NCBI GenBank assembly: GCA_030681475.1
Contig: JAUXWT010000100.1
Location: 1-64,000, forward strand
DNA: 64,000 nt
DNA from: Bacteroidales bacterium
Lineage (GTDB): Bacteria > Bacteroidota > Bacteroidia > Bacteroidales > FEN-979
Direction: 5' to 3'
The translations under genes were made by a program, and so were the position numbers. Below are positions 657 to 62,758 of the stretch, in pieces. A model generated the notes under the pieces. It was not told where the DNA came from, did no database searches, and saw only the letters and a list, made by a program, of their open reading frames with translations. Numbering within the stretch: the first letter of the stretch is position 1; the number at the start of each line of letters is the position of its first letter.

Positions 657-3600
657 TTATTCCTTAATGATCTTCACAACACCTGTTTGTTCACCGGAAA
701 ATACCCTCATGAAATAAATCCCGGAAGGTTTTCCGTCAAGCGTAAATACATGCTTGTTCTCGCCTGTGAAATTATAATTCAGGATCTTGTCACCCTGCAT
801 ACCATAAATTTCAACTTTCACGGCAGAATTTTGTGATGCTTCACCCAATTCAAGTGTGAATGAACCTGTTGTCGGATTCGGGTAAACCTTGTAGAACTCC
901 TGTTCCTTGTCCGTAATTACCGGGTTTGTGCCGGTCAATGGACTGGCGGGTACAGGAGGAATATAACACCAGGGGCCTGTTGGTGCAATATAACCATGCA
1001 GGTATCCCCCCCATGCTACAGAGGCTCCGGGTAAAAACCGGATGTTCTGTCCGGCGATCATGGTGATGCTGCCTGCGCCCTGAACGGCAAATGTAGTTCC
1101 GCCGCCTGCAAGGGTTATGGTTTGTTGCGCATTGTAACAAACATTCGCTAACGCAGAAATGGTGACGTTTTGCGCATTGAAGTTGTCTGGAATCAAACCG
1201 TCGGAGACCCGTACATCGTCAATGCAAACCCCATAGCCATATTTAGCGTTCCCTTCGAAGGCGATGTAATAATCACCCGTCTTACCTGGAAGTGCTAATG
1301 TTTCCTGCGTCCAGGTCGAGATATCTGACGTATAGGTGGCCAACTGCGTCCAGGTCCCTCCTGCCGAAGTTTTATAGAATACCGTCAGCTGATCCTGGTC
1401 GGGCGCCCAGTACGTCTGGGTATGCCAGAACTTGAGTTGCGGGGTAGTGACGGCGGTCAGGTTTAATGGCGGGGTGATCAGCTTTGTTTTATGATCCCCG
1501 GTAGCTTCAACGAAGAGATTGGCATTATATGTCCCGCTGTGGGCTGTGCTGGGATTGCCATATACGCTTCCATTTCTGAACGTCCAGTTTACTCCTGAAG
1601 CGTTTACCTGTTCCTGCGACCAGCAGGCAGGTATTGCCCCCCCATTCTCAAATCCTTCATTCCATGGGAATGCTGAAACCGGACCATCTCCAACCTGCAC
1701 ATCATCGATACAAACCCCCCAGCCATATTTGGCATTCCCTTCGAATGCGATGTAATAATCACTGGTCGGATTGGGCAGCGGTATTGCTTCCAGCGTCCAG
1801 GTTGCGAAGTTTGATGTATAGGAGACAAGTTGTATCCAACTGCCGCCAGCCGAAGTTTTATAGAATACAGTCAACTGATCCTGGTCCGGGGACCATAACT
1901 CCTGTGTGTGCCAGAATTTGAGCTGCGCGCTGCATAGGGTGGTCAGGTTTAATGCCGGGGTGATCAGCCTTGTTTTATTATCAGCTGCAGTGGCATCCAT
2001 GAGACGTGCATTATAAGTTCCGCTATGGGCCGCAGCAGGATGAATGCCCCCGTTTCCTGTTACGAAGTCCCAGTTTATCCCTGAACCGTTCACCTGTTCC
2101 TGTGTCCAGCAAGTCGGGATCAACCCTCCGTTCTCAAATCCTTCATTCCAGGGGAACGATGTGACGGTACAGTTGGTCACATTAATATAGTTGGTCTTTG
2201 TTTCCGGGTCACTGCCATACCCATTGGTAGCGGTGAGGGTTACGGAATACAAACCGGTAGCGGTGAACTTTACCTGTGGATTTTGTGAAGTTGAGGTTGT
2301 TCCGTTCAGGTATGTGACGGTTGCCGGCGCAAAACTCCAGCTCCAGCTTGTAGGCGTGTTGCTTGACAGGTCGGTGAAATTAACCTGGGCGTTTATGAAT
2401 GGGTTCGTGTTGCTTGCAGAAAAATCGGCGACAGGCGCTGATGCACCGGTGGAATACAAATCCGATTGCCACAATCCTCTTCCAGAAGTGGCGGCCCTGA
2501 TCCTGCTGAGCGAAGGGCTGGCGTTGTAATATATTTCGAGTTCATTGACAACCACATTGGGCAACCCGGTTGAAAACAGGGTCCAGTTTGCAGCGCCAAC
2601 CTTAACATAAACGCCTAAATCGGTTCCGACATATAATTCCACCTGGCCGGTGTTTTGTTTGTTCTGAATTATATTCATCACCGGAAGCGCTGGCAGACCA
2701 GTTGAGATACTGGCCCAGGTCGAGCCGCCATTGGTCGTTTGATAGACCCTGTTGCTGCTGTAATTCCCCAGGGTAACCCAAGCGGTGTTCGGATCGTTGT
2801 TTTTAACACAAACAGAGGTAATGTCGCCCGAAGCTGTCGGGATAGTTCCTGTTATATTCGTCCAGGAAGTTCCGCCATTGGTCGTCCTGTATAAAATAGA
2901 TGATGTTGCAGCATAGATGTAGCTTGAATTTGAAGAAGCTACCGTGATGGTTAGAATATTCGAACCGCCCCATGTGCTTATTTTAGTCCATGTGGTACCC
3001 TGGTTTGTTGACTTAAAAACATCCTGGTATCCGAAATATACAGTTGTATTTACGTTGGGGTCAATTGCGAAGGGTGAAACCCAGGAGGGAGACCCGGTCA
3101 GGCCTGCCGTAATCGATGACCAGTTGACCCCATGATTTGTAGATCTTCTCAACGCCCCATTTTGGAATTCACCATACAAGGTGTTCTGGTTGGTATAATC
3201 GATCGCACAATCCATGCCGTCTCCTCCCAATACATCACTCCAGGAGCCTGAAAGGAAAGCTTTGGTGCCGTTGTCTTGTAAACCGATAATATTCTCATTA
3301 GCAACTGTTTGTGCAACACCTAAACGATATAATTGGCTGGTAATCAACCCGCTTCCGATATAGGTCCATAGGGCGCCGCTGTTGGTCGTCTTGTAGATTC
3401 CGCCATCATTACATTCAAAAAGGGTTGAAGCGCCGTTCTGATAAGCCATGAAATGCTTGTCGGCATGCACTTCCTGCACACCGCAGTCTCCTGCCCAATG
3501 GCTGCTCATTGTCCATGATGTGCCACCGTTAGTAGATCTCCAGGTGTTAACCCCGCCTACAAACACAGTATTGGCATTGGTAGGATCGGTGGCGATGCAC

Positions 3601-4796
3601 AGGTCATAACCTGCCTGGCCTCCTGTAGCATTGGTGCTGCACTGATTGTGTAATATGTTGATGGTTGTACCGAGGAAAACCGGTGAAAACGTTGCACCAT
3701 TGTCTGTTGATTTGTAAATTGCGGCAAGGCCGTCGTTAACATCGCTCACAACCGCATAAACGATGGCCGCGTTGTTTGGTGAAACAGCAATTTCTGTCCT
3801 GTAGTGGGCGGTGCTGAGTGTCGCAGCCCAAGTGGAACCATCATTAACTGACCGGTAGATATCCCCGGTTCTTGTGGATGCGCAGATGATGGAGGGATTA
3901 CCAGGATTAAATTCCATATCGCCGAATTCAGTGGCAGTTAACAGAGTCCATGAGGTTCCGCCATTAATAGTCTTGTAAACACCTACGGAGGTTGCTGCGT
4001 ATAAAAGGCTGTTATTTGACGGGTGAATCAGCAACCGGTAAACACGACGGTACTGATTGGCTGTGAAGGATAATCCGGTTGCATTCCAGGTCGTTCCCCC
4101 GTCGGTGGATTTAAGAACACCCACGCTGTTATTGTCATTGTATTGGCCGCCACCCAAACTCCACATGCTTCCGCCGTTTTTGTCTCCCGTGGCAATATAA
4201 ATAACGTCGGGGGATGAGACCGGCCGGTAAGCAACAATGTCACTCACCCCCAAAACGGCATTCTGATCACCAAGAGGTGTCCAGTTTGTTCCGCCATCCG
4301 AAGTTTTCCAGATACCTCCTGAGGGGGATCCCACATATAAGGTATTGTTGTCTCCTGAGATAAATCCGACACAATTCAACCGTCCCAATCCTGCATATCC
4401 GCCCGGCGAACTGGTAGGCCCTAAACTTGTCCAGTTGCCAGCCGGACTGTCTGTTTCGGGATTTTCCGATAAGTATTTTGCAAACTCCTCACCGGCTGAT
4501 GTTTTAGGGAATTCGCCGGTTTCCTTGACAATTCTTTTTTCCATGTGCCATTCCCAGCGTTTGAATTGTTTCCACCCGAACGCCTTGGTCTCTTCACCTT
4601 TGTCATTTTTATAGTACCCGTTGTTAACATTTAACGGGGTCCAGTAATCATTGAATGCTTTTTGAATTTCATAAAAAGTCAAATTGCCTTTCTGTAGTTT
4701 TTCTTGTGGAAGATTGTCTGTCCACGGCTGTGCTGCCATATAATTGGTAAATACAATGAATAACAACAAGGATAAAAAAATGGTAATTTTTTTCAT
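657..4796 (-). CDS. T9SS-secreted beta-propeller / PKD / choice-of-anchor J protein
   Basis: A 1379-residue exported protein. It has a signal peptide of about 22 residues (MKKITIFLSLLLFIVF...). About residues 130-770 hold some eleven BNR/sortilin-type repeats of the form S-T-D/N-G-G-T-x-W, predicting one or two beta-propellers. A PKD-like domain follows at about 785-880 (VADFSASNTNPF...). Two tandem copies of a choice-of-anchor J (MAM-like) domain follow at about 880-1040 and 1040-1200, each opening with FPWNEGFENGG. The T9SS type A sorting domain occupies about 1300-1379 (VYPNPTTGSF). The family is secreted by T9SS and either released or anchored at the surface. The substrate is unknown; BNR propellers often bind or process glycans or protein partners, but no catalytic motif is visible. 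The two anchor-J copies are close at DNA level, pointing to a recent internal duplication. Confidence 0.9.
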   Translation of the reverse strand: MKKITIFLSLLLFIVFTNYMAAQPWTDNLPQEKLQKGNLTFYEIQKAFNDYWTPLNVNNGYYKNDKGEETKAFGWKQFKRWEWHMEKRIVKETGEFPKTSAGEEFAKYLSENPETDSPAGNWTSLGPTSSPGGYAGLGRLNCVGFISGDNNTLYVGSPSGGIWKTSDGGTNWTPLGDQNAVLGVSDIVAYRPVSSPDVIYIATGDKNGGSMWSLGGGQYNDNNSVGVLKSTDGGTTWNATGLSFTANQYRRVYRLLIHPSNNSLLYAATSVGVYKTINGGTSWTLLTATEFGDMEFNPGNPSIICASTRTGDIYRSVNDGSTWAATLSTAHYRTEIAVSPNNAAIVYAVVSDVNDGLAAIYKSTDNGATFSPVFLGTTINILHNQCSTNATGGQAGYDLCIATDPTNANTVFVGGVNTWRSTNGGTSWTMSSHWAGDCGVQEVHADKHFMAYQNGASTLFECNDGGIYKTTNSGALWTYIGSGLITSQLYRLGVAQTVANENIIGLQDNGTKAFLSGSWSDVLGGDGMDCAIDYTNQNTLYGEFQNGALRRSTNHGVNWSSITAGLTGSPSWVSPFAIDPNVNTTVYFGYQDVFKSTNQGTTWTKISTWGGSNILTITVASSNSSYIYAATSSILYRTTNGGTSWTNITGTIPTASGDITSVCVKNNDPNTAWVTLGNYSSNRVYQTTNGGSTWASISTGLPALPVMNIIQNKQNTGQVELYVGTDLGVYVKVGAANWTLFSTGLPNVVVNELEIYYNASPSLSRIRAATSGRGLWQSDLYSTGASAPVADFSASNTNPFINAQVNFTDLSSNTPTSWSWSFAPATVTYLNGTTSTSQNPQVKFTATGLYSVTLTATNGYGSDPETKTNYINVTNCTVTSFPWNEGFENGGLIPTCWTQEQVNGSGINWDFVTGNGGIHPAAAHSGTYNARLMDATAADNKTRLITPALNLTTLCSAQLKFWHTQELWSPDQDQLTVFYKTSAGGSWIQLVSYTSNFATWTLEAIPLPNPTSDYYIAFEGNAKYGWGVCIDDVQVGDGPVSAFPWNEGFENGGAIPACWSQEQVNASGVNWTFRNGSVYGNPSTAHSGTYNANLFVEATGDHKTKLITPPLNLTAVTTPQLKFWHTQTYWAPDQDQLTVFYKTSAGGTWTQLATYTSDISTWTQETLALPGKTGDYYIAFEGNAKYGYGVCIDDVRVSDGLIPDNFNAQNVTISALANVCYNAQQTITLAGGGTTFAVQGAGSITMIAGQNIRFLPGASVAWGGYLHGYIAPTGPWCYIPPVPASPLTGTNPVITDKEQEFYKVYPNPTTGSFTLELGEASQNSAVKVEIYGMQGDKILNYNFTGENKHVFTLDGKPSGIYFMRVFSGEQTGVVKIIKE

Positions 4797-11274: not shown

Positions 11275-14200
11275 ATGATCACTTTCTTTCAGAACAATGA
11301 CCTTTATTATGCCGTAGAAAGTCGAGAAAAACTTGGCGGTAAAGACACGGAGAAACTAAACTGGCTGTTCGGCGGTGCAGAATGCATCGCCGAACCTGTT
11401 TTACCGGGTGCCTTTGTGGGACCAAGGCGTGAGATGATCACCCCGTGGAGTACCAATGCCGTAGAGATTACGCAGAATATGGGGGTCAGCGGGATCAGCA
11501 GGATTGAAGAGTTTACGATTTCCGATTTCCGATTAACAAACAACAAGTCTACGGTCAGCAGTCAGCAGTCGGCAGTCGGCAGTCAGCAGTCGGCAGTCAC
11601 GTGTCACGTGTCACGTGTTACTAGTCACGATCCAATGCTACAACACGTTTACCATGGCCTCGACCAGGAAATCTTTCATATCCTCCACGAACCGGACCCA
11701 GTTCTTTTCATCGACGATATTGCCGCTTACAATAAACAGGAAGGACTGGCGCTTAGTGATGATGAAATCGGATATCTCATCGGGCTCAGCCAGAAACTTG
11801 ACCGCAAATTAACTGACAGCGAGGTTTTTGGATTTTCACAGGTCAACTCGGAACATTGCCGGCATAAGATATTCAATGGCATGTTTATCATTGATGGTCA
11901 GGAGATGCCCGAATCGCTTTTTGCATTGATCAAAAAAACAGCCAGAGAACATCCGAATTTCCTGGTTTCAGCGTATAAGGATAATGTAGCATTCATCCTC
12001 GGTCCCCAAATTGAGCAGTTCGCCCCGGGGATGCAGCATGTGGCCGATTTTTTTACAATCAAAGACATTCAGTCGGTCATCTCTCTGAAAGCCGAAACCC
12101 ATAATTTTCCAACTACTGTTGAGCCCTTTAACGGCGCTGCTACCGGTTCGGGGGGCGAGATCCGCGACCGCATGGCCGGTGGAAAAGGAAGCATTCCCAT
12201 GGCTGGCACAGCCGTTTACATGACTTCCTATCCGCGGCTTGATGGCGGGAGGTCGTGGGAAACCAACATACCGGCGCGGCCGTGGCTTTATCAGACTCCG
12301 GAAGAGATACTCATCAAGGCATCGAATGGCGCCAGCGATTTTGGCAACAAGTTCGGACAGCCACTCATCTGCGGTTCCGTGCTTACTTTTGAACATAATG
12401 CTGACGATCGCTTGTATGGTTACGACAAGGTGATCATGCAGGCCGGCGGGATTGGATTTGCAAAAAAAGAGGACAGTCTGAAAGACGAACCGGAGGCGAA
12501 TCAGCACATCGTGGTTCTTGGAGGCGACAACTATCGGATCGGAATGGGAGGCGGAGCTGTTTCATCGGTCGCTACCGGTGAATACGGCAATGCCATTGAA
12601 CTGAACGCCGTGCAACGGTCTAACCCTGAGATGCAAAAAAGAGTGTTCAATGCCATCAGGGCAATGACCGAAATGGACGTGAACCCGATCGTTTCCATTC
12701 ATGACCACGGCGCGGGAGGGCATCTGAACTCACTGTCGGAACTGGTAGAAACCACCGGCGGAACCATACGGATCGATAAATTGCCGGTCGGCGATCCGAC
12801 CCTGTCGGCCAGGGAGATCGCCAGCAATGAGTCCCAGGAACGGATGGGATTGATCCTGGCCGAAAAGGATGTGTTGCTTTTGCGGGAAATAGCAGATCGG
12901 GAGCGGGCTCCGGTTTACCTTGCCGGCCGGACCACCGGCGATCAGCAACTTATTTTTGAAGACAACCGTGAAAATATCCGGCCCATCGACCTGAAAATCT
13001 CAGACTTTTTCGGAAAACCCCCAAAAACTATAATGACCGACACGTCACGCGTCACGCGTCACGCGTCACTCTCATACGATGCAACAAAATTTTGGCAATA
13101 CTTGATCGAAGTCCTCCAGCTTGAGTCCGTCGCCTGCAAAGACTGGCTGACCAACAAAGTTGACCGTGCATTGAGTGGAAAAATTGCCCGGCAACAGACC
13201 TGTGGCGCCATTCAACTGCCGCTTAACAATGTTGGCGTGACTGCGCTCGATTACCAGGGGATCAAGGGCATTGCCACTGCGCTGGGCCATGCGCCGGTTG
13301 CCGCGCTCATCGATCCGGCTGCCGGGTCGAGGCTTGCTGTGGCCAAAGCGCTGACCAACATCGTTTGGGCTCCGCTTACACATGGACTGAAAGGCGTTTC
13401 ACTCAGCGCAAACTGGATGTGGCCTTGTAAAAATCCCGGTGAAGACGCCCGTCTTTACACTGCAGTTAAGGCGGTGAGTGATTTTGCCATTGCGCTGGGC
13501 ATCAATATACCAACGGGTAAAGATTCACTCTCCATGACCCAGAAGTATCCGGACGGAAAGGTGGTTTATTCTCCGGGAACCGTGATCATTTCAGCGGTAG
13601 GAGAGGTGTCGGACGTTAAAAAAGTGGTAAGTACCGATCTGGCGCCTGATGTCGATTCCGTTCTGGTTTATATCCCGTTTTCCGACCCCGGCTTTGAATT
13701 GGGCGGCAGCAGCTTCGCCCAGATTTTGAACCAAACTGGCGATAAAACCCCGGATGTGAGCGATACAACATATTTTGTCACGGTTTTCGAGACTATCCAA
13801 CGACTTGTCAATGAAGGTGTAATTCTGGCAGGACATGATGTGGCAGCCGGCGGATTGATAACAACCCTGCTGGAAATAACCTTCCCGGTCGAAAACATCG
13901 GACTCGACTTAAACCTCGATCTTTTAGGAGACAACGATCCTGTCAGGGTTCTCTTCAGTGAAAAACCCGGCCTGGTTGTGCAAATTGAAAGTAGCCAAGT
14001 CCTTCGACATCCATTATTCAATTTTCAATATTCGATATTCAGAAATGTTACTGCCATACCTCTGGGTAAAATAACCCGGGAGCGAACCATGAAAATCAAA
14101 TTGCATAGTGAATTGTATCAATTTGACATCGACTCCCTCCGCGATACCTGGTTCAAAACCTCCTATTTGCTCGACCGTCTGCAGTCGGGTGAAAAACTGG

Positions 14201-19719: not shown

Positions 19720-19746
19720 CCTGTTACCCTGTCACCCTGTCACCCG
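19720..19746. repeat. TTACCCTG-family 8-nt array
   Basis: About three units of CTGTTACC/CTGTCACC start right after the SDR stop codon. The family recurs at 27696-27731 and 58514-58559, always in this orientation on the plus strand. Confidence 0.85.
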
Positions 19747-27663: not shown

Positions 27664-27731
27664 TCTTTCACTATTTCACTATTTCACTATTTTGCTACCC
27701 TGTCACCCTGTTACCCTGTCACCCTGTTACC
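27664..27731. repeat. Mosaic 8-nt array: ATTTCACT units then TTACCCTG units
   Basis: It begins 5 bases before the adenosyltransferase start and therefore forms its 5' leader. Units of CTATTTCA pass through one CTATTTTG into CTACCCTG, TCACCCTG and TTACCCTG. The change of unit within one continuous 8-base rhythm is striking. Confidence 0.9.
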
Positions 27732-27820
27732 ATTTTTGTAAAACAATGAAAATGAGCTTTTTGATAAAAAAGAACAAATTTAGAAAAAATTAGTTAGTAC
27801 TACTTAAGAATTGTAAAAAA

Positions 27821-27926
27821 ACAGGTAAACGGGTAAACGGGTGAACTGGTTTACACGCGGGCAGGCGGACGGGCGGACAAGGGGACTTCACATTCGTCAC
27901 CTGTCACGCGTCACCTGTCACGTGTT
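27821..27926. repeat. Mosaic array: GGTAAACG, GGCGGAC and TCACSTG units
   Basis: Successive blocks: three 8-base GGTAAACG-like units, then GCGGGCAGGCGGACGGGCGG-type units, then 7-base TCACCTG/TCACGCG/TCACGTG units. The block lies before the promoter box of the 27971 gene. Confidence 0.85.
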
Positions 27927-27946
27927 ATACATCCAACCTGTTTTCA

Positions 27947-27954
27947 TATCTTTG
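27947..27954 (+). promoter_or_regulatory. -7 box for the 27971 gene
   Basis: TATCTTTG matches TAnnTTTG, 16 bases before the start codon and just after a repeat array. Confidence 0.45.
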
Positions 27955-27970
27955 TCTCAAAACAAAGCAT

Positions 27971-28510
27971 ATGCACACCACTGAATATTTCCCGTTCATG
28001 TTTACCGTCGTTGGTGGATTTCTCAAGTTATTGATCGTCTTCGGCGGCGCTTTTTTCCTGTTGTGGTATTACCTCAAACAGACGAGAAAACCGGCCCCGA
28101 TTGCCGGTGGAAGCCAGGATCACCAGATGATCCTTCCATTGCGCTTGCAGGCTTATGAACGGTTTGTTCTTTTTCTGGAGCGTATTCACCCGTCGAACCT
28201 TATTTTACGTTTAAACAGTCCGGACTTGTCGGCGTTGCAACTGCAATCATTGCTTGTCCGTACCATTCGTGAAGAGTTTGAATATAACCTTTCCCAGCAA
28301 CTTTATATTTCAGGCAATTCATGGGATCTGATTAAAAACGCAAAGGAGGAGTCCATTGCCATGATCAACCAGGCATCATCAGGTTTAGCTGAAAATGCAC
28401 CGGCATCTGATCTGGTAAAGCGGGTTTTCGAAGTTGCCATATCCCGCGGGAAATTACCGGTTGAAACTACCCTTGAAGAGATAAAAAAGGAGTTGCAGCG
28501 GTTATTCTGA
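27971..28510 (+). CDS. Single-pass membrane protein, conserved hypothetical (DUF7935-like)
   Basis: A 179-residue protein. One N-terminal membrane helix (about 10-31: FTVVGGFLKLLIVFGGAFFL) is followed by a cytoplasmic, mainly helical domain with LQAYERFVLFLERI and REEFEYNLSQQLYIS. I recognise it as a conserved Bacteroidetes hypothetical, probably DUF7935, but cannot name a function. It is flanked on both sides by long repeat arrays. Confidence 0.75.
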   Translation: MHTTEYFPFMFTVVGGFLKLLIVFGGAFFLLWYYLKQTRKPAPIAGGSQDHQMILPLRLQAYERFVLFLERIHPSNLILRLNSPDLSALQLQSLLVRTIREEFEYNLSQQLYISGNSWDLIKNAKEESIAMINQASSGLAENAPASDLVKRVFEVAISRGKLPVETTLEEIKKELQRLF

Positions 28511-28523
28511 CCTGGTGAGAAGA

Positions 28524-28645
28524 CGTGACGCGTGACGCGTGACAGGTGACAGGTGACACGTCCGCTTGTCCGCCTGTCCGCTGGTCCCCCTGTCCCCCTG
28601 TCCCCCTGTCCCCCTGTCCCCCTGGCCCCCTGTCCCCTCGTTCAC
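28524..28645. repeat. Mosaic array: GTGACGC, GTCCGCNT and TCCCCCTG units
   Basis: Continuous transitions run from GTGACGC and GTGACAG (7 bases) to GTCCGCTT/GTCCGCCT (8 bases) to several TCCCCCTG (8 bases). The right end runs into the stop codon (28642-28644) of the convergent AlkD-like gene. This is the longest mosaic array in the window. Confidence 0.9.
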
Positions 28646-32983: not shown

Positions 32984-33022
32984 TCACGAAGCTCCACGAA
33001 GAATTCACGAAGCTCCACGAAG
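32984..33022. repeat. CACGAAG repeat, two 20-nt units
   Basis: TTCACGAAGCTCCACGAAG-type units occur twice in tandem, immediately after the stop of the GxxExxY relic. The reverse-complement word CTTCGTG is clustered on its other side at 33232-33274. Confidence 0.8.
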
Positions 33023-33231: not shown

Positions 33232-33274
33232 TTCTTCGTGTAACTTCGTGCGATCTTCTTTTCACTTCGTGTAA
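33232..33274. repeat. CTTCGTG repeat cluster
   Basis: Three CTTCGTG words within 43 bases, inverted relative to the CACGAAG array at 32984-33022. They bracket the GxxExxY relic. Confidence 0.7.
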
Positions 33275-33391
33275 CAAAACACAACGCTATTGTGCAACAA
33301 TCACTGATAATAGCATCAGTGAAGGATGGTATATGCCGTTTTCTGTAAAATACATGACTATGGTTAGTCGCATTTTCGGAAAACAGGAGAA

Positions 33392-34517: not shown

Positions 34518-34549
34518 CGTGACACGTGACATGTGACACGTGACAAGTA
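34518..34549. repeat. GTGACAC 7-nt array between sdhA and sdhB
   Basis: Four GTGACA-type heptads. On the minus strand they read CTTGTCACGTGTCAC..., the same text as inside purL at 11596-11620. The array sits within the sdh operon spacer. Confidence 0.9.
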
Positions 34550-40272: not shown

Positions 40273-40300
40273 GTTACGAATTACGAATGATGATTAAGAA
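40273..40300. repeat. TACGAAT-family short repeat
   Basis: TTACGAATTACGAATGATGATTAAGAAT lies between nadD and gmk. The same words recur at 58477-58500 and inside gldA at 62945-62963. Confidence 0.75.
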
Positions 40301-40882: not shown

Positions 40883-40936
40883 TTATTTCGTTATTTCGCC
40901 ATTTCGCCATTTCGCCATTTCGCCATTTCGCTATTT
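40883..40936. repeat. ATTTCGCC/ATTTCGCT 8-nt array
   Basis: About six tandem units in the yicC-gmk spacer, starting about ten bases before the gmk start and ending at the yicC stop. The unit reads ATTTCGCC on the plus strand although the genes are on the minus strand. Confidence 0.92.
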
Positions 40937-48141: not shown

Positions 48142-48175
48142 AATATCTGTTTTAGAAAAAATTTATAGGAATCCT

Positions 48176-48240
48176 TCACCATTTCACCATTTCACCATTT
48201 CGCTATTTCGCTATTTCACTATTTCGTTACCTCGCCACCT
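48176..48240. repeat. ATTTCACC/ATTTCGCT 8-nt array
   Basis: About seven units fill the spacer between the PASTA gene and the T9SS gene, both on the minus strand. Units drift from ATTTCACC to ATTTCGCT to ATTTCACT to GTTACCTC. Plus-strand orientation is the same as in the other ATTTCGCT arrays. Confidence 0.92.
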
Positions 48241-49952: not shown

Positions 49953-50020
49953 AATTTCGCCATTTCGCTATTTCGCTATTTCGCTATTTCGCTATTTCGC
50001 TATTTCGCTATTTCGCTATT
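49953..50020. repeat. ATTTCGCT 8-nt array, about 8 units
   Basis: Nearly perfect tandem CTATTTCG units, opening with CCATTTCG, fill the whole ddl-rdgB spacer. The array ends 5 bases before the rdgB start, so the array itself contributes the ribosome-binding context. It is the most regular array in the window. Confidence 0.95.
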
Positions 50021-50025
50021 TAATT

Positions 50026-53283: not shown

Positions 53284-53308
53284 ACGAGGACAAGCGGACA
53301 AGCGGACT
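53284..53308. repeat. GCGGACAA 8-nt array
   Basis: Three CGGACAAG units upstream of the Smr gene promoter. Inverted complement of the GTCCGCNT array at 53416-53441. Confidence 0.8.
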
Positions 53309-53415: not shown

Positions 53416-53441
53416 TTGTCCGCCTGTCCGCTCGTCCGCAC
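53416..53441. repeat. GTCCGCCT 8-nt array in the Smr gene leader
   Basis: TTGTCCGCCTGTCCGCTCGTCCGC: three units between the promoter and the start codon. The family recurs at 28558-28582 and, inverted, at 27859-27880 and 53284-53308. Confidence 0.8.
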
Positions 53442-58467: not shown

Positions 58468-58476
58468 AAGAAAAAA

Positions 58477-58559
58477 ATTACGAATTACGAATTAAGAATT
58501 ATAAATGACTTTATATTACCCTGTTACCCTGTTACCCTGTTACCTTGTCACCCTGTTAC
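58477..58559. repeat. TACGAATTA and TTACCCTG arrays in the metK leader
   Basis: CGAATTA units (58480-58500) and then TTACCCTG/TCACCCTG units (58514-58559). Both lie between the SAM-II candidate and the metK start codon, so they would be transcribed. Confidence 0.88.
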
Positions 58560-62257: not shown

Positions 62258-62758
62258 ATTCCCTGCTGCATAACCATGATATAAGGTCAGTTATCGATTT
62301 TTTGTGTTTAAATGCCGCGGTTGCAGAATAGCCGAAAAACCTGTTTTGGTTCCAGAAAAGCCACGAAGTTTTATTTAGCGGGGAAATCTGTACAAGAAGC
62401 AGTTGTCCATTAGCAATACCAGGATTGATTGATTGATTGATTGATTGCATAGGAATAGCTGGTGTTAAAATGTTCAAACATGAATGACCAGATGATATGA
62501 ATGCCCGGAGCCATGAAACAGCTTAGAAGTGAATAATATTTGACAGGCAAATATATGGATAATGATTTCCATGTACACGAAAAGTTTTTTTATTTTTTGG
62601 GGGAATTAATGTTGCATTTGAGCAAATTGGGAATTTACAAGTAAATGTTATGGTAAATATTCGTTATAGTTGCAGAAAATCAAGGTTATGACTATGAAAA
62701 GTGAGACTTAACAGGTACACTTGTCGAAAAAGAAAAGATTTTGAACGATTGGGGATTT
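62258..62758. other. Intergenic region with GATT microsatellite
   Basis: About 500 bases without a convincing gene. It contains the six-copy GATT repeat (62423-62447) and AT-rich sequence. Near 62660-62708 a TATAGTTG box precedes ATG 62688 and a 7-codon frame that stops at once, perhaps the start of a lost gene. Confidence 0.45.
62423..62447. repeat. GATT tetranucleotide repeat, 6 copies
   Basis: Six uninterrupted GATT units plus one G. The tract lies about 170 bases upstream of the lipoprotein gene on the opposite strand (AATC units). Confidence 0.95.

Follow-up and report, generated by a model that had tools for sequence, protein, structure and literature searches.

Species-specific tandem units of 7-9 nt at shared intergenic gaps and in loops of essential enzymes suggest that repeats are copied from place to place in Bacteroidales genomes

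Genomes of one family of the Bacteroidales carry tandem arrays whose units are locked to a length of 7-9 nt. These units form genome-specific dialects, turn over at fixed sites, are shared locally between arrays and occur in composites that mirror each other across a gene. The presence of each species' own units at the same intergenic gaps and in the same essential-enzyme loops suggests, as judged from sequence comparison, that repeats are copied from place to place. In the reading we favor, with a probability of roughly 55%, arrays grown by slippage would in addition start new arrays at tolerant sites, or overwrite such sites, through templated copying. This copying step is an inference, as are the enzymes involved and the reason for a length of 7-9 nt.

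The window, that is the whole stretch of DNA analyzed, comprises 64,000 nucleotides (G000:C94:1-64000) of a 4.24 Mb draft genome in 111 contigs (G000, the own genome). For its DUF7935 gene, the nearest relatives that carry a name are on record as Bacteroidales or Bacteroidetes MAGs. A family sample of 24 genomes (1,643,924 bases, 27% of them from the own genome) was searched for arrays with a run score of at least 13, counting minimal periods only; 8 order-level genomes from other families were kept out of the family period counts and tallied separately. In window and family sample alike, the arrays are head-to-tail, perfect or near-perfect repeats of short (1-9 nt) units, i.e. simple-sequence repeats (SSRs). 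Scanned for periods 4 to 15, the window yielded arrays of period 7 (6), period 8 (10), period 4 (1) and period 14 (2) and of no further period, with an average of 0 arrays in shuffles; one of the 10 period-8 calls is GATT in six copies, really period 4. This GATT array lies at 62423-62447, and period-4 arrays total only two in the 1.64 Mb family sample. The arrays of the window, and the gene flanked by the most elaborate of them, are as follows.

11512..11534, + strand: TTTACGA/TTTCCGA 7-mer array within purL (TRF, period scan, PurL alignment)
11554..11618, + strand: mosaic 7-mer array in the purL variable loop, GTCAGCA/GTCGGCA then GTCACGT
13043..13069, + strand: GTCACGC 7-mer array within purL (PurL alignment of congeners)
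19720..19745, + strand: CCTGTYAC 8-mer array at a gene border
27666..27731, + strand: 8-mer tract, TTTCACTA passing into CCCTGTYA in register, upstream of the cobalamin adenosyltransferase gene
27819..27850, + strand: AAACGGGT 8-mer array between the divergent cob and DUF7935 genes
27859..27887, + strand: GGCGGACG/GGCGGACA 8-mer units, absent from the TRF list
27895..27922, + strand: GTCACCT/GTCACGC 7-mer array upstream of the DUF7935 gene
27971..28510, + strand: DUF7935 gene (PF25589), with mirrored composite arrays on both sides
28524..28640, + strand: composite array of GTGACGC and GTGACAG (7 nt), then GTCCGCYT and GTCCCCCT (8 nt), counterpart of 27819-27922 in mirror order
34518..34545, + strand: 7-mer array of CGTGACA where the Fe-S subunit gene call starts
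40274..40288, + strand: TTACGAA (TACGAAT family), 2.1 copies, weak (TRF)
40883..40936, + strand: ATTTCGCC 8-mer array occupying the whole yicC-gmk spacer; congeners have a different unit or none
48175..48225, + strand: TTCACCAT/TTCGCTAT 8-mer array
49954..50021, + strand: ATTTCGCT 8-mer array, 8.5 copies
53288..53307, + strand: GGACAAGC, 2.5 copies; arrays at the same spacer in G012, G013 and G018
53417..53439, + strand: TGTCCGCC, 2.9 copies (TRF)
58476..58501, + strand: AATTACG 7-mer array (TRF, period scan)
58516..58556, + strand: TTACCCTG 8-mer array (TRF, period scan)

Longer repeats occur in the window as well: a 486-nt unit in 1.9 copies at 1213-2156, inside a 1379-aa ORF (657-4796), and 10- and 21-nt repeats (CACGAAGCTC, CTTCGTGTAA) at 32985-33022 and 33234-33275, within 932 nt that contain no long ORF call.

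The first-pass annotation had named several recurring unit families at 16 places in the window, and printing out the sequence confirmed them at 16 of 16, some weakly, namely at 40274 and, for the GTCCGCNT family, at 53288-53307 (2.5 copies), 53417-53439 (2.9 copies) and 27859 (unlisted by TRF). Tandem words of five families were counted 15, 8, 17, 4 and 2 times in the window and 0 times in each of 10 dinucleotide shuffles. The arrays reach beyond the window: CGTCACGCGTCACG was found at 27 places, some overlapping, across the 4.24 Mb genome (reversed control, 0), and 65 period-7/8 tracts were called, at a lower threshold, in a 443-kb sample of the own genome. The expectation that unit families exceed control frequencies was thus borne out, in the window against shuffles and genome-wide against reversed words (CGTCACGCGTCACG, AATCGTA, RGYGAAAT).

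Unit length is sharply restricted. Arrays of periods 3 to 12 in the 24 family genomes numbered 0, 2, 1, 3, 131, 91, 17, 2, 0 and 4, respectively, so that 239 arrays of period 7-9 compare with 12 of the remaining periods. The unit is not one of exactly 7 nt: 8- and 9-nt units stand beside the heptamers, making the arrays a variant of the wider SSR kind. In the 8 genomes of other families (approximately 0.40 Mb), where 9 arrays have a period of 7-9 and 7 have another period, the length lock is not visible. Seventeen more distant contigs, many from Chitinophagaceae (0.26 Mb, named loci), contained 10 arrays of period 7, 4 of period 8 and no others between 3 and 12; seven contigs of mostly Lewinella type (0.12 Mb, named loci) contained one array of period 7 and one of period 12. 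Array load also differs among congeners. G009 is without an array in 31 kb and has zero matches genome-wide to four unit families (RGYGAAAT, AATCGTA, GGYGGACR, GGTRAACG). G017 was considered as an array-free key genome and dropped, as it carries 2 period-8 arrays and one 6-mer array in 111 kb and also matches AATCGTA/RGYGAAAT words.

Within the family, each genome favors units of its own. Unit clusters are largely confined to single genomes: AAATAGCG (12/18) and ACAGGGTG (9/11) in G000, which contributes 27% of the bases, AAAAGCG (8/9) in G025 and AAACGGGT (5/6) in G012. Whole-genome word counts, taken in 19 congeners with overlapping places counted, gave for RGYGAAAT standing twice in tandem 270 in G000, 257 in G014, 150 in G012, 2 in G001 and 0 in G009, and for AATCGTA 415 in G001, 203 in G012, 177 in G006, 6 in G000 and 3 in G014. 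GGYGGACR reached 377 in G018 and 192 in G013 and was at 0 in seven genomes; GGTRAACG reached 166 in G014, 70 in G018 and 55 in G012 and was at 0 in eleven. For one of AATCGTA and RGYGAAAT, the reversed-word control was positive only in G012 (18) and G013 (2) and gave 0 in the other 17 of the 19 genomes. For GGYGGACR and GGTRAACG this control says little: one reversed word hits the same arrays, read in a different rotation, and the other is high only in G012 (48), where it probably hits another array family. Unlinked arrays of the same genome were related in 13.0% of 2161 pairs (282), compared with a label-permuted mean of 6.7%, a level of relatedness reached by 0 of 2000 permutations, which take arrays as independent. 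Without G000, 18.0% of 523 unlinked pairs were related, compared with 6.2% after permutation. Genome-specific mutation bias could yield part of this dialect.

Synteny of the window was compared between the own genome, G012, G013 and G018 (31 spacers with at least one ortholog). An array is present in at least one genome in 10 of the 31 spacers and in none in 21. Among 124 orthologous spacer pairs, both members carry an array in 24, one member in 10 + 9 and neither in 81. As these pairs stem from only 31 spacers, array status was permuted over spacers too, which gave a mean of 7.5 double-positive pairs and a maximum of 16; 24 was not reached in 5000 permutations. Units are unrelated in 15 of the 24 double-array pairs, and the 9 pairs with related units, as plain descent would give, count against the copying reading. 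The spacer of the array at 48175..48225, for instance, holds GCCCACCT in G012, AAATAGTG (related) in G013 and GCGGACAA in G018, and that of the array at 49954..50021 holds ATTGGAA in G012, a short GGTGAGT array in G013 and none in G018. Some spacers are array-free at constant length (e.g. 136/136/136/137 nt), as would be expected if promoters exclude arrays.

Units also differ at the yicC-gmk spacer, which starts at the yicC stop. The 230 nt after this stop were searched by program in 19 genomes of the genus and in G022, and 11 of these 20 carry an array of period 7-9: a AAATAGCG-type unit in the own genome, AATTTGAA in G012, AAGTGTT in G002, ACTGCAG/ACTGCCA in G016, AGGATTTG in G011, a GCTCAAG/GTTCAAA-type 7-mer in G005 and a AATGCAGAC-like 9-mer in G018, G014, G013, G004 and G022. 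The program scan found none in eight genomes (G001, G003, G006, G007, G008, G009, G010 and G015). G017, otherwise an array-poor congener, has a GGGGCT 6-mer array in this spacer (L122 6056-6082), one of just three period-6 arrays in the family sample.

Arrays are also accommodated within enzymes. Array-bearing ORFs match Pfam families of AlaRS, NadE, a MurF-alanine racemase fusion, MeaB, M17 aminopeptidase, a DNA polymerase III delta-type subunit, an ABC ATPase and an epimerase, and also PurL; the frames stay open across the arrays in AlaRS, NadE and PurL. AlaRS and NadE were scanned for periods 5-12 at a loose score of at least 9, at 30 loci each out of 41 and 40 genomes with a match, respectively. 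The AlaRS loop bears an array in 16 of 30 loci, all of period 7, with units including AATCGTC, GTCACGT, CATTCGT, TCCCTCG, TGCAAAA, ATCCCAC, ATCAGGC, CGAAGGA and ATCCAGG, and none in 14, the own genome included. The NadE linker bears an array of period 7 or 8, of many different units, in 20 of 30 loci and none in 10.

PurL was aligned for 14 of 19 genomes, leaving out G015 (internal TGA) and G002, G004, G005 and G009 (partial or split). The G015 sequence (L217), from a draft genome, has a single in-frame TGA within the PurL match. The loop corresponding to 13043..13069 is of identical length in 13 of the 14 congeners: six of the 13 have GTCAC-type units (decayed in G003 and G017), G012 has GGAAATT, and no array was seen by eye in G018, G001, G006, G007, G008 and G010. 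The fourteenth, G011, has GTCAC-type units and a loop 21 nt longer. In a midpoint-rooted PurL tree, in which branching among the other ten is mostly unresolved, G006, G007, G008 and G010, whose loops are array-free, split from these ten with support of 100/100. At least one change between array and no array therefore kept loop length, which would fit overwriting better than insertion.

Arrays share units preferentially with their neighbors. Among the 239 arrays, 22 of 68 pairs separated by 100-1000 bp were related and 26 of 99 separated by 1-3 kb; beyond 3 kb the share fell to the genomic level (282/2161). Since some near pairs represent one broken tract, arrays less than 100 bp apart were merged into 198 tracts. 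Of the tract pairs with 100-1000 bp between them, 18 of 42 were then related (P = 0.0002), and of those with 1-3 kb between them, 21 of 61 (P = 0.002); taken together, 39 of 103 pairs closer than 3 kb were related, compared with 246 of 1375 distant pairs (P = 3.8e-6). Further apart, related merged tracts amounted to 26 of 141 at 3-8 kb and 49 of 269 at 8-20 kb. Orientation is balanced at 100-3000 bp (19 direct, 20 inverted), as it was before merging at 300-3000 bp (22 direct, 22 inverted). Selection for hairpins was rejected, there being no excess of inverted pairs. At 3-20 kb, direct pairs outnumber inverted ones 47 to 28, which the copying model does not predict.

Inverted, near-identical copies are found close together, the configuration looked for as a trace of template switching. 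Two mirrored composites stand out. One flanks yicC in G014: a series of 9-mer array, A-rich linker and 7-mer array lies on one side of the gene and returns in inverted form on the other, with 127 of 134 positions alike (7 mismatches; inverted score 240, direct 43); the A-rich makeup of the linker counts against the copying reading. At the downstream site, 9-mers are present in four genomes besides G014; upstream, G014 is the only one of 20 genomes scanned with such arrays (G016 has a weak 8-mer), and in another genus arrays were seen by eye in G029 and G035. Any copying would thus likely have run from downstream to upstream. In the window, the strand-reversed 27819-27922 and 28524-28640, on either side of the DUF7935 gene, share the block order GTGACNN then GTCCGCYT, with an inverted score of 95, a direct score of 36 and a shuffle maximum of 51; as dinucleotide shuffles destroy the repeats themselves, this control is no test of block order. 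Judged by eye, arrays related to the upstream composite sit at the same spacer in L037, L034, L033 and L039, which represent other species; L031 has no downstream composite. The downstream array is partly shared with G013 (score 49), so this is not a clean event of the window's own lineage. Relatives of the DUF7935 protein with 58-76% identity are found in L035, L048 and L049, titled Draconibacterium orientale or Alphaproteobacteria, labels that may be loose.

What recurs is mostly the array itself. Of 348 repeat-bearing HSPs, a count that leaves out those over 600 bp, 24 include, in each of the two copies, at least 14 non-array bases, with an identity of at least 75%. Transposon-like dispersal with flanks was rejected on this ground. 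Most copies consisting of repeat units only, each shared unit taken alone could be convergence.

Duplications of other kinds were also encountered. In G020, a direct duplication of approximately 150 bp, 0.5 kb apart on one contig (L139 19510-19664, L140 165-312), comprises heptamer arrays and 109 non-array bases per copy. Three array-dense stretches with many short ORFs and repeated inter-ORF modules, L283 1-16000 (G018:C1), L284 (G000:C82) and L285 (G000:C27), have matches to PIN, DUF4143, AAA ATPase, DUF354 and glycosyltransferase and look cassette-like. A CTTAACACTTAAAAC string repeated in G018:C1 was discarded as proof of copying; it sits among segmental duplications and is also found in G000, G002, G014 and G016.

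An unbroken rhythm, in which one family runs into the next at 27.6-28.6 kb, had been the first-pass annotation's reason for proposing templated copying or exchange. The rhythm is real: in the mosaic at 28524-28637, GTGACGC, GTGACAG, GTCCGCTT and GTCCCCCT follow one another with register intact, first at 7 and then at 8 nt. Same-period junctions between different units were likewise in best register in 305 of 335 cases, with 48.7 expected, a figure to be read with the fact that overlapping runs are in register by construction. At 230 of the 335 the units differ by one base only, and most switches are in-register steps of 1-2 bases that mutation plus slippage can explain; where units lie at least 3 bases apart, 24 of 47 junctions are in best register, with 9.2 expected. 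Stitching is thereby weakened as proof of copying, and the proposal draws its support instead from dialects, unit replacement, sharing below 3 kb and mirrored composites.

The same junctions are what slippage and point mutation would leave if they acted alone, arrays growing from local sequence and persisting at tolerant sites while their units drift and mutation bias sets the dialects. Mismatches inside arrays are chiefly transitions (655:262), and some flanks resemble the unit, such as in NadE, where TGCAAAA arrays adjoin GAATTGCAAA (by eye). As a full account we nevertheless hold this to be unlikely, given that the whole unit, length included, is replaced at the same spacer among congeners, that sharing is in excess below 3 kb, that composites stand in mirror order and that replacement in the PurL loop is of equal length. 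A dedicated array-writing enzyme with a 7-9 nt register, be it a telomerase-like reverse transcriptase or a Y1/RAYT-type transposase, would account for a fixed unit length with free unit sequence and for arrays that mostly recur without shared flanks. Array-bearing genomes G010, G011, G013 and G020 gave no RVT_1 match (E ≤ 0.001), however, and G007, G010, G011 and G015 no Y1_Tnp match, negatives that divergent enzymes or gaps in draft assemblies could produce; neither enzyme was retained as a required source, and we consider this explanation very unlikely.

Equally hard to credit is that the arrays are selected binding sites for a DNA or RNA regulator, as proposed for the TAACTGA repeats. In line with such a role, 164 of the 239 arrays fall outside ORF calls, in sequence of which crude calls mark 86% as coding, an over-representation in non-coding DNA; arrays in codirectional spacers lie close to the upstream stop (median 12 nt), and among 80 such cases purines dominate the coding strand in 48 and pyrimidines in 25. 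The unit at a given gene, on the other hand, changes completely between congeners, arrays also occur inside unrelated enzymes, and counts of AATCGTA and RGYGAAAT are similar on both strands in most genomes. With so mild an orientation bias to genes and varying distances, a translational signal was rejected as well. An assembly artefact of short-read drafts is barely conceivable: the assemblies compared consist of many contigs, and those close relatives that carry names are MAGs, but arrays lie inside contigs, at the same spacers across assemblies of several projects and in open frames of three enzymes. A bolder form of templated copying, which we regard as doubtful, would make tandem 7-9-mers a self-propagating sequence state, in which any array may act as donor and overwrite tolerant sites, units compete as dialects, and the lock to 7-9 nt reflects a recognition length of strand exchange or of a polymerase. 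RecA samples microhomology of roughly 8 nt.

In the favored reading of slippage combined with templated copying, simple-sequence arrays locked to 7-9 nt would persist where extra or altered sequence is tolerated, that is in spacers, often right behind a stop codon, and in enzyme loops. Units would alter by point mutation and slippage would spread the change within the array, with which the junction data are in agreement. Existing arrays would serve as templates for copying to another place, mostly within approximately 3 kb and in direct or inverted orientation; copying across the whole genome would be rarer. In this way each genome would come to have a dialect of its own, and an unrelated unit could take the place of a fixed-site array. 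The likely route would be that a nascent strand switches template, or that short tracts are converted, in the course of replication or repair, the short repeats providing the landing sites; template switching at the fork would fit both the range of up to approximately 3 kb and the two orientations. No benefit to the cell is assumed.

Heptameric SSRs have been described before, which corrects the first-pass view that no named element has this design (PMC4679880, PMC4692102). TAACTGA heptamers, for which no transfer mechanism is reported to be evident, occur in five Bacteroidetes as well as in Beggiatoaceae and cyanobacteria (MacGregor 2015, PMC4679880). Like the present arrays, they are numerous per genome and mostly intergenic, with some in ORFs; they are mixed with other heptamers in Microcystis, Gramella and Elizabethkingia, and close relatives can be without an array (PMC4679880). 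Unlike here, that study tracks one unit, which in the BOGUAY genome lies mostly directly upstream of start codons, and its available text reports no 8- or 9-mers, genome dialects, fixed-site unit replacement or distance analysis (PMC4679880). GGGNATC heptamers of Xanthomonas and Nostoc, which form G-quadruplexes and prefer four units, are likewise spread across the genome and enriched in non-coding DNA; they occur singly or as inverted pairs and prefer aligned over divergent ORFs (Rehm 2015, PMC4692102). The same source, in the part available, mentions three tandem heptanucleotides in Calothrix and calls reports on repeats of 6-9 nt rare (PMC4692102). Among the matches listed by our search, these two papers are the ones close to the present arrays. 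Neither, as far as the available text of each extends, reports fixed-site unit replacement, genome dialects or an 8-9-nt class (PMC4679880, PMC4692102), and no paper describing these three features was among those matches; most subscription journals lie outside the search. TAACTGA is the consensus unit of 0 of our 239 arrays and none is within one base of it; a run of at least 3 G or C occurs in only 35 of the 239 consensus units, so that a G-tract in each unit is not a property of these arrays.

Tandem 7-mers of several unit types per genome are known from cyanobacterial STRR heptamers and the heptamers of the Nostoc tRNA-Leu intron, to which the present arrays can, by description, be likened in this respect. 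REPINs and Rickettsia palindromic elements, the latter also found in frame within genes, are similarly small dispersed repeats; they are fixed palindromic units, unlike tandem 7-9-mers of free sequence. Quasipalindrome mutations in E. coli are related to template switching between inverted repeats, a process that would explain both homogenized inverted copies and multi-base replacement in coding DNA. Template switching between short inverted repeats has been studied in yeast; the available text concerns such repeats rather than genome-wide tandem-unit families (PMC8604942).

The sharp lock to 7-9 nt, the dialects, the contrast of array-rich and array-poor congeners and the replacement of units at fixed sites make the origin, spread and length control of these arrays testable. 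For the organisms, the arrays constitute a source of rapid change in the loops of housekeeping proteins, a change that resembles hypervariability and need not be adaptive.
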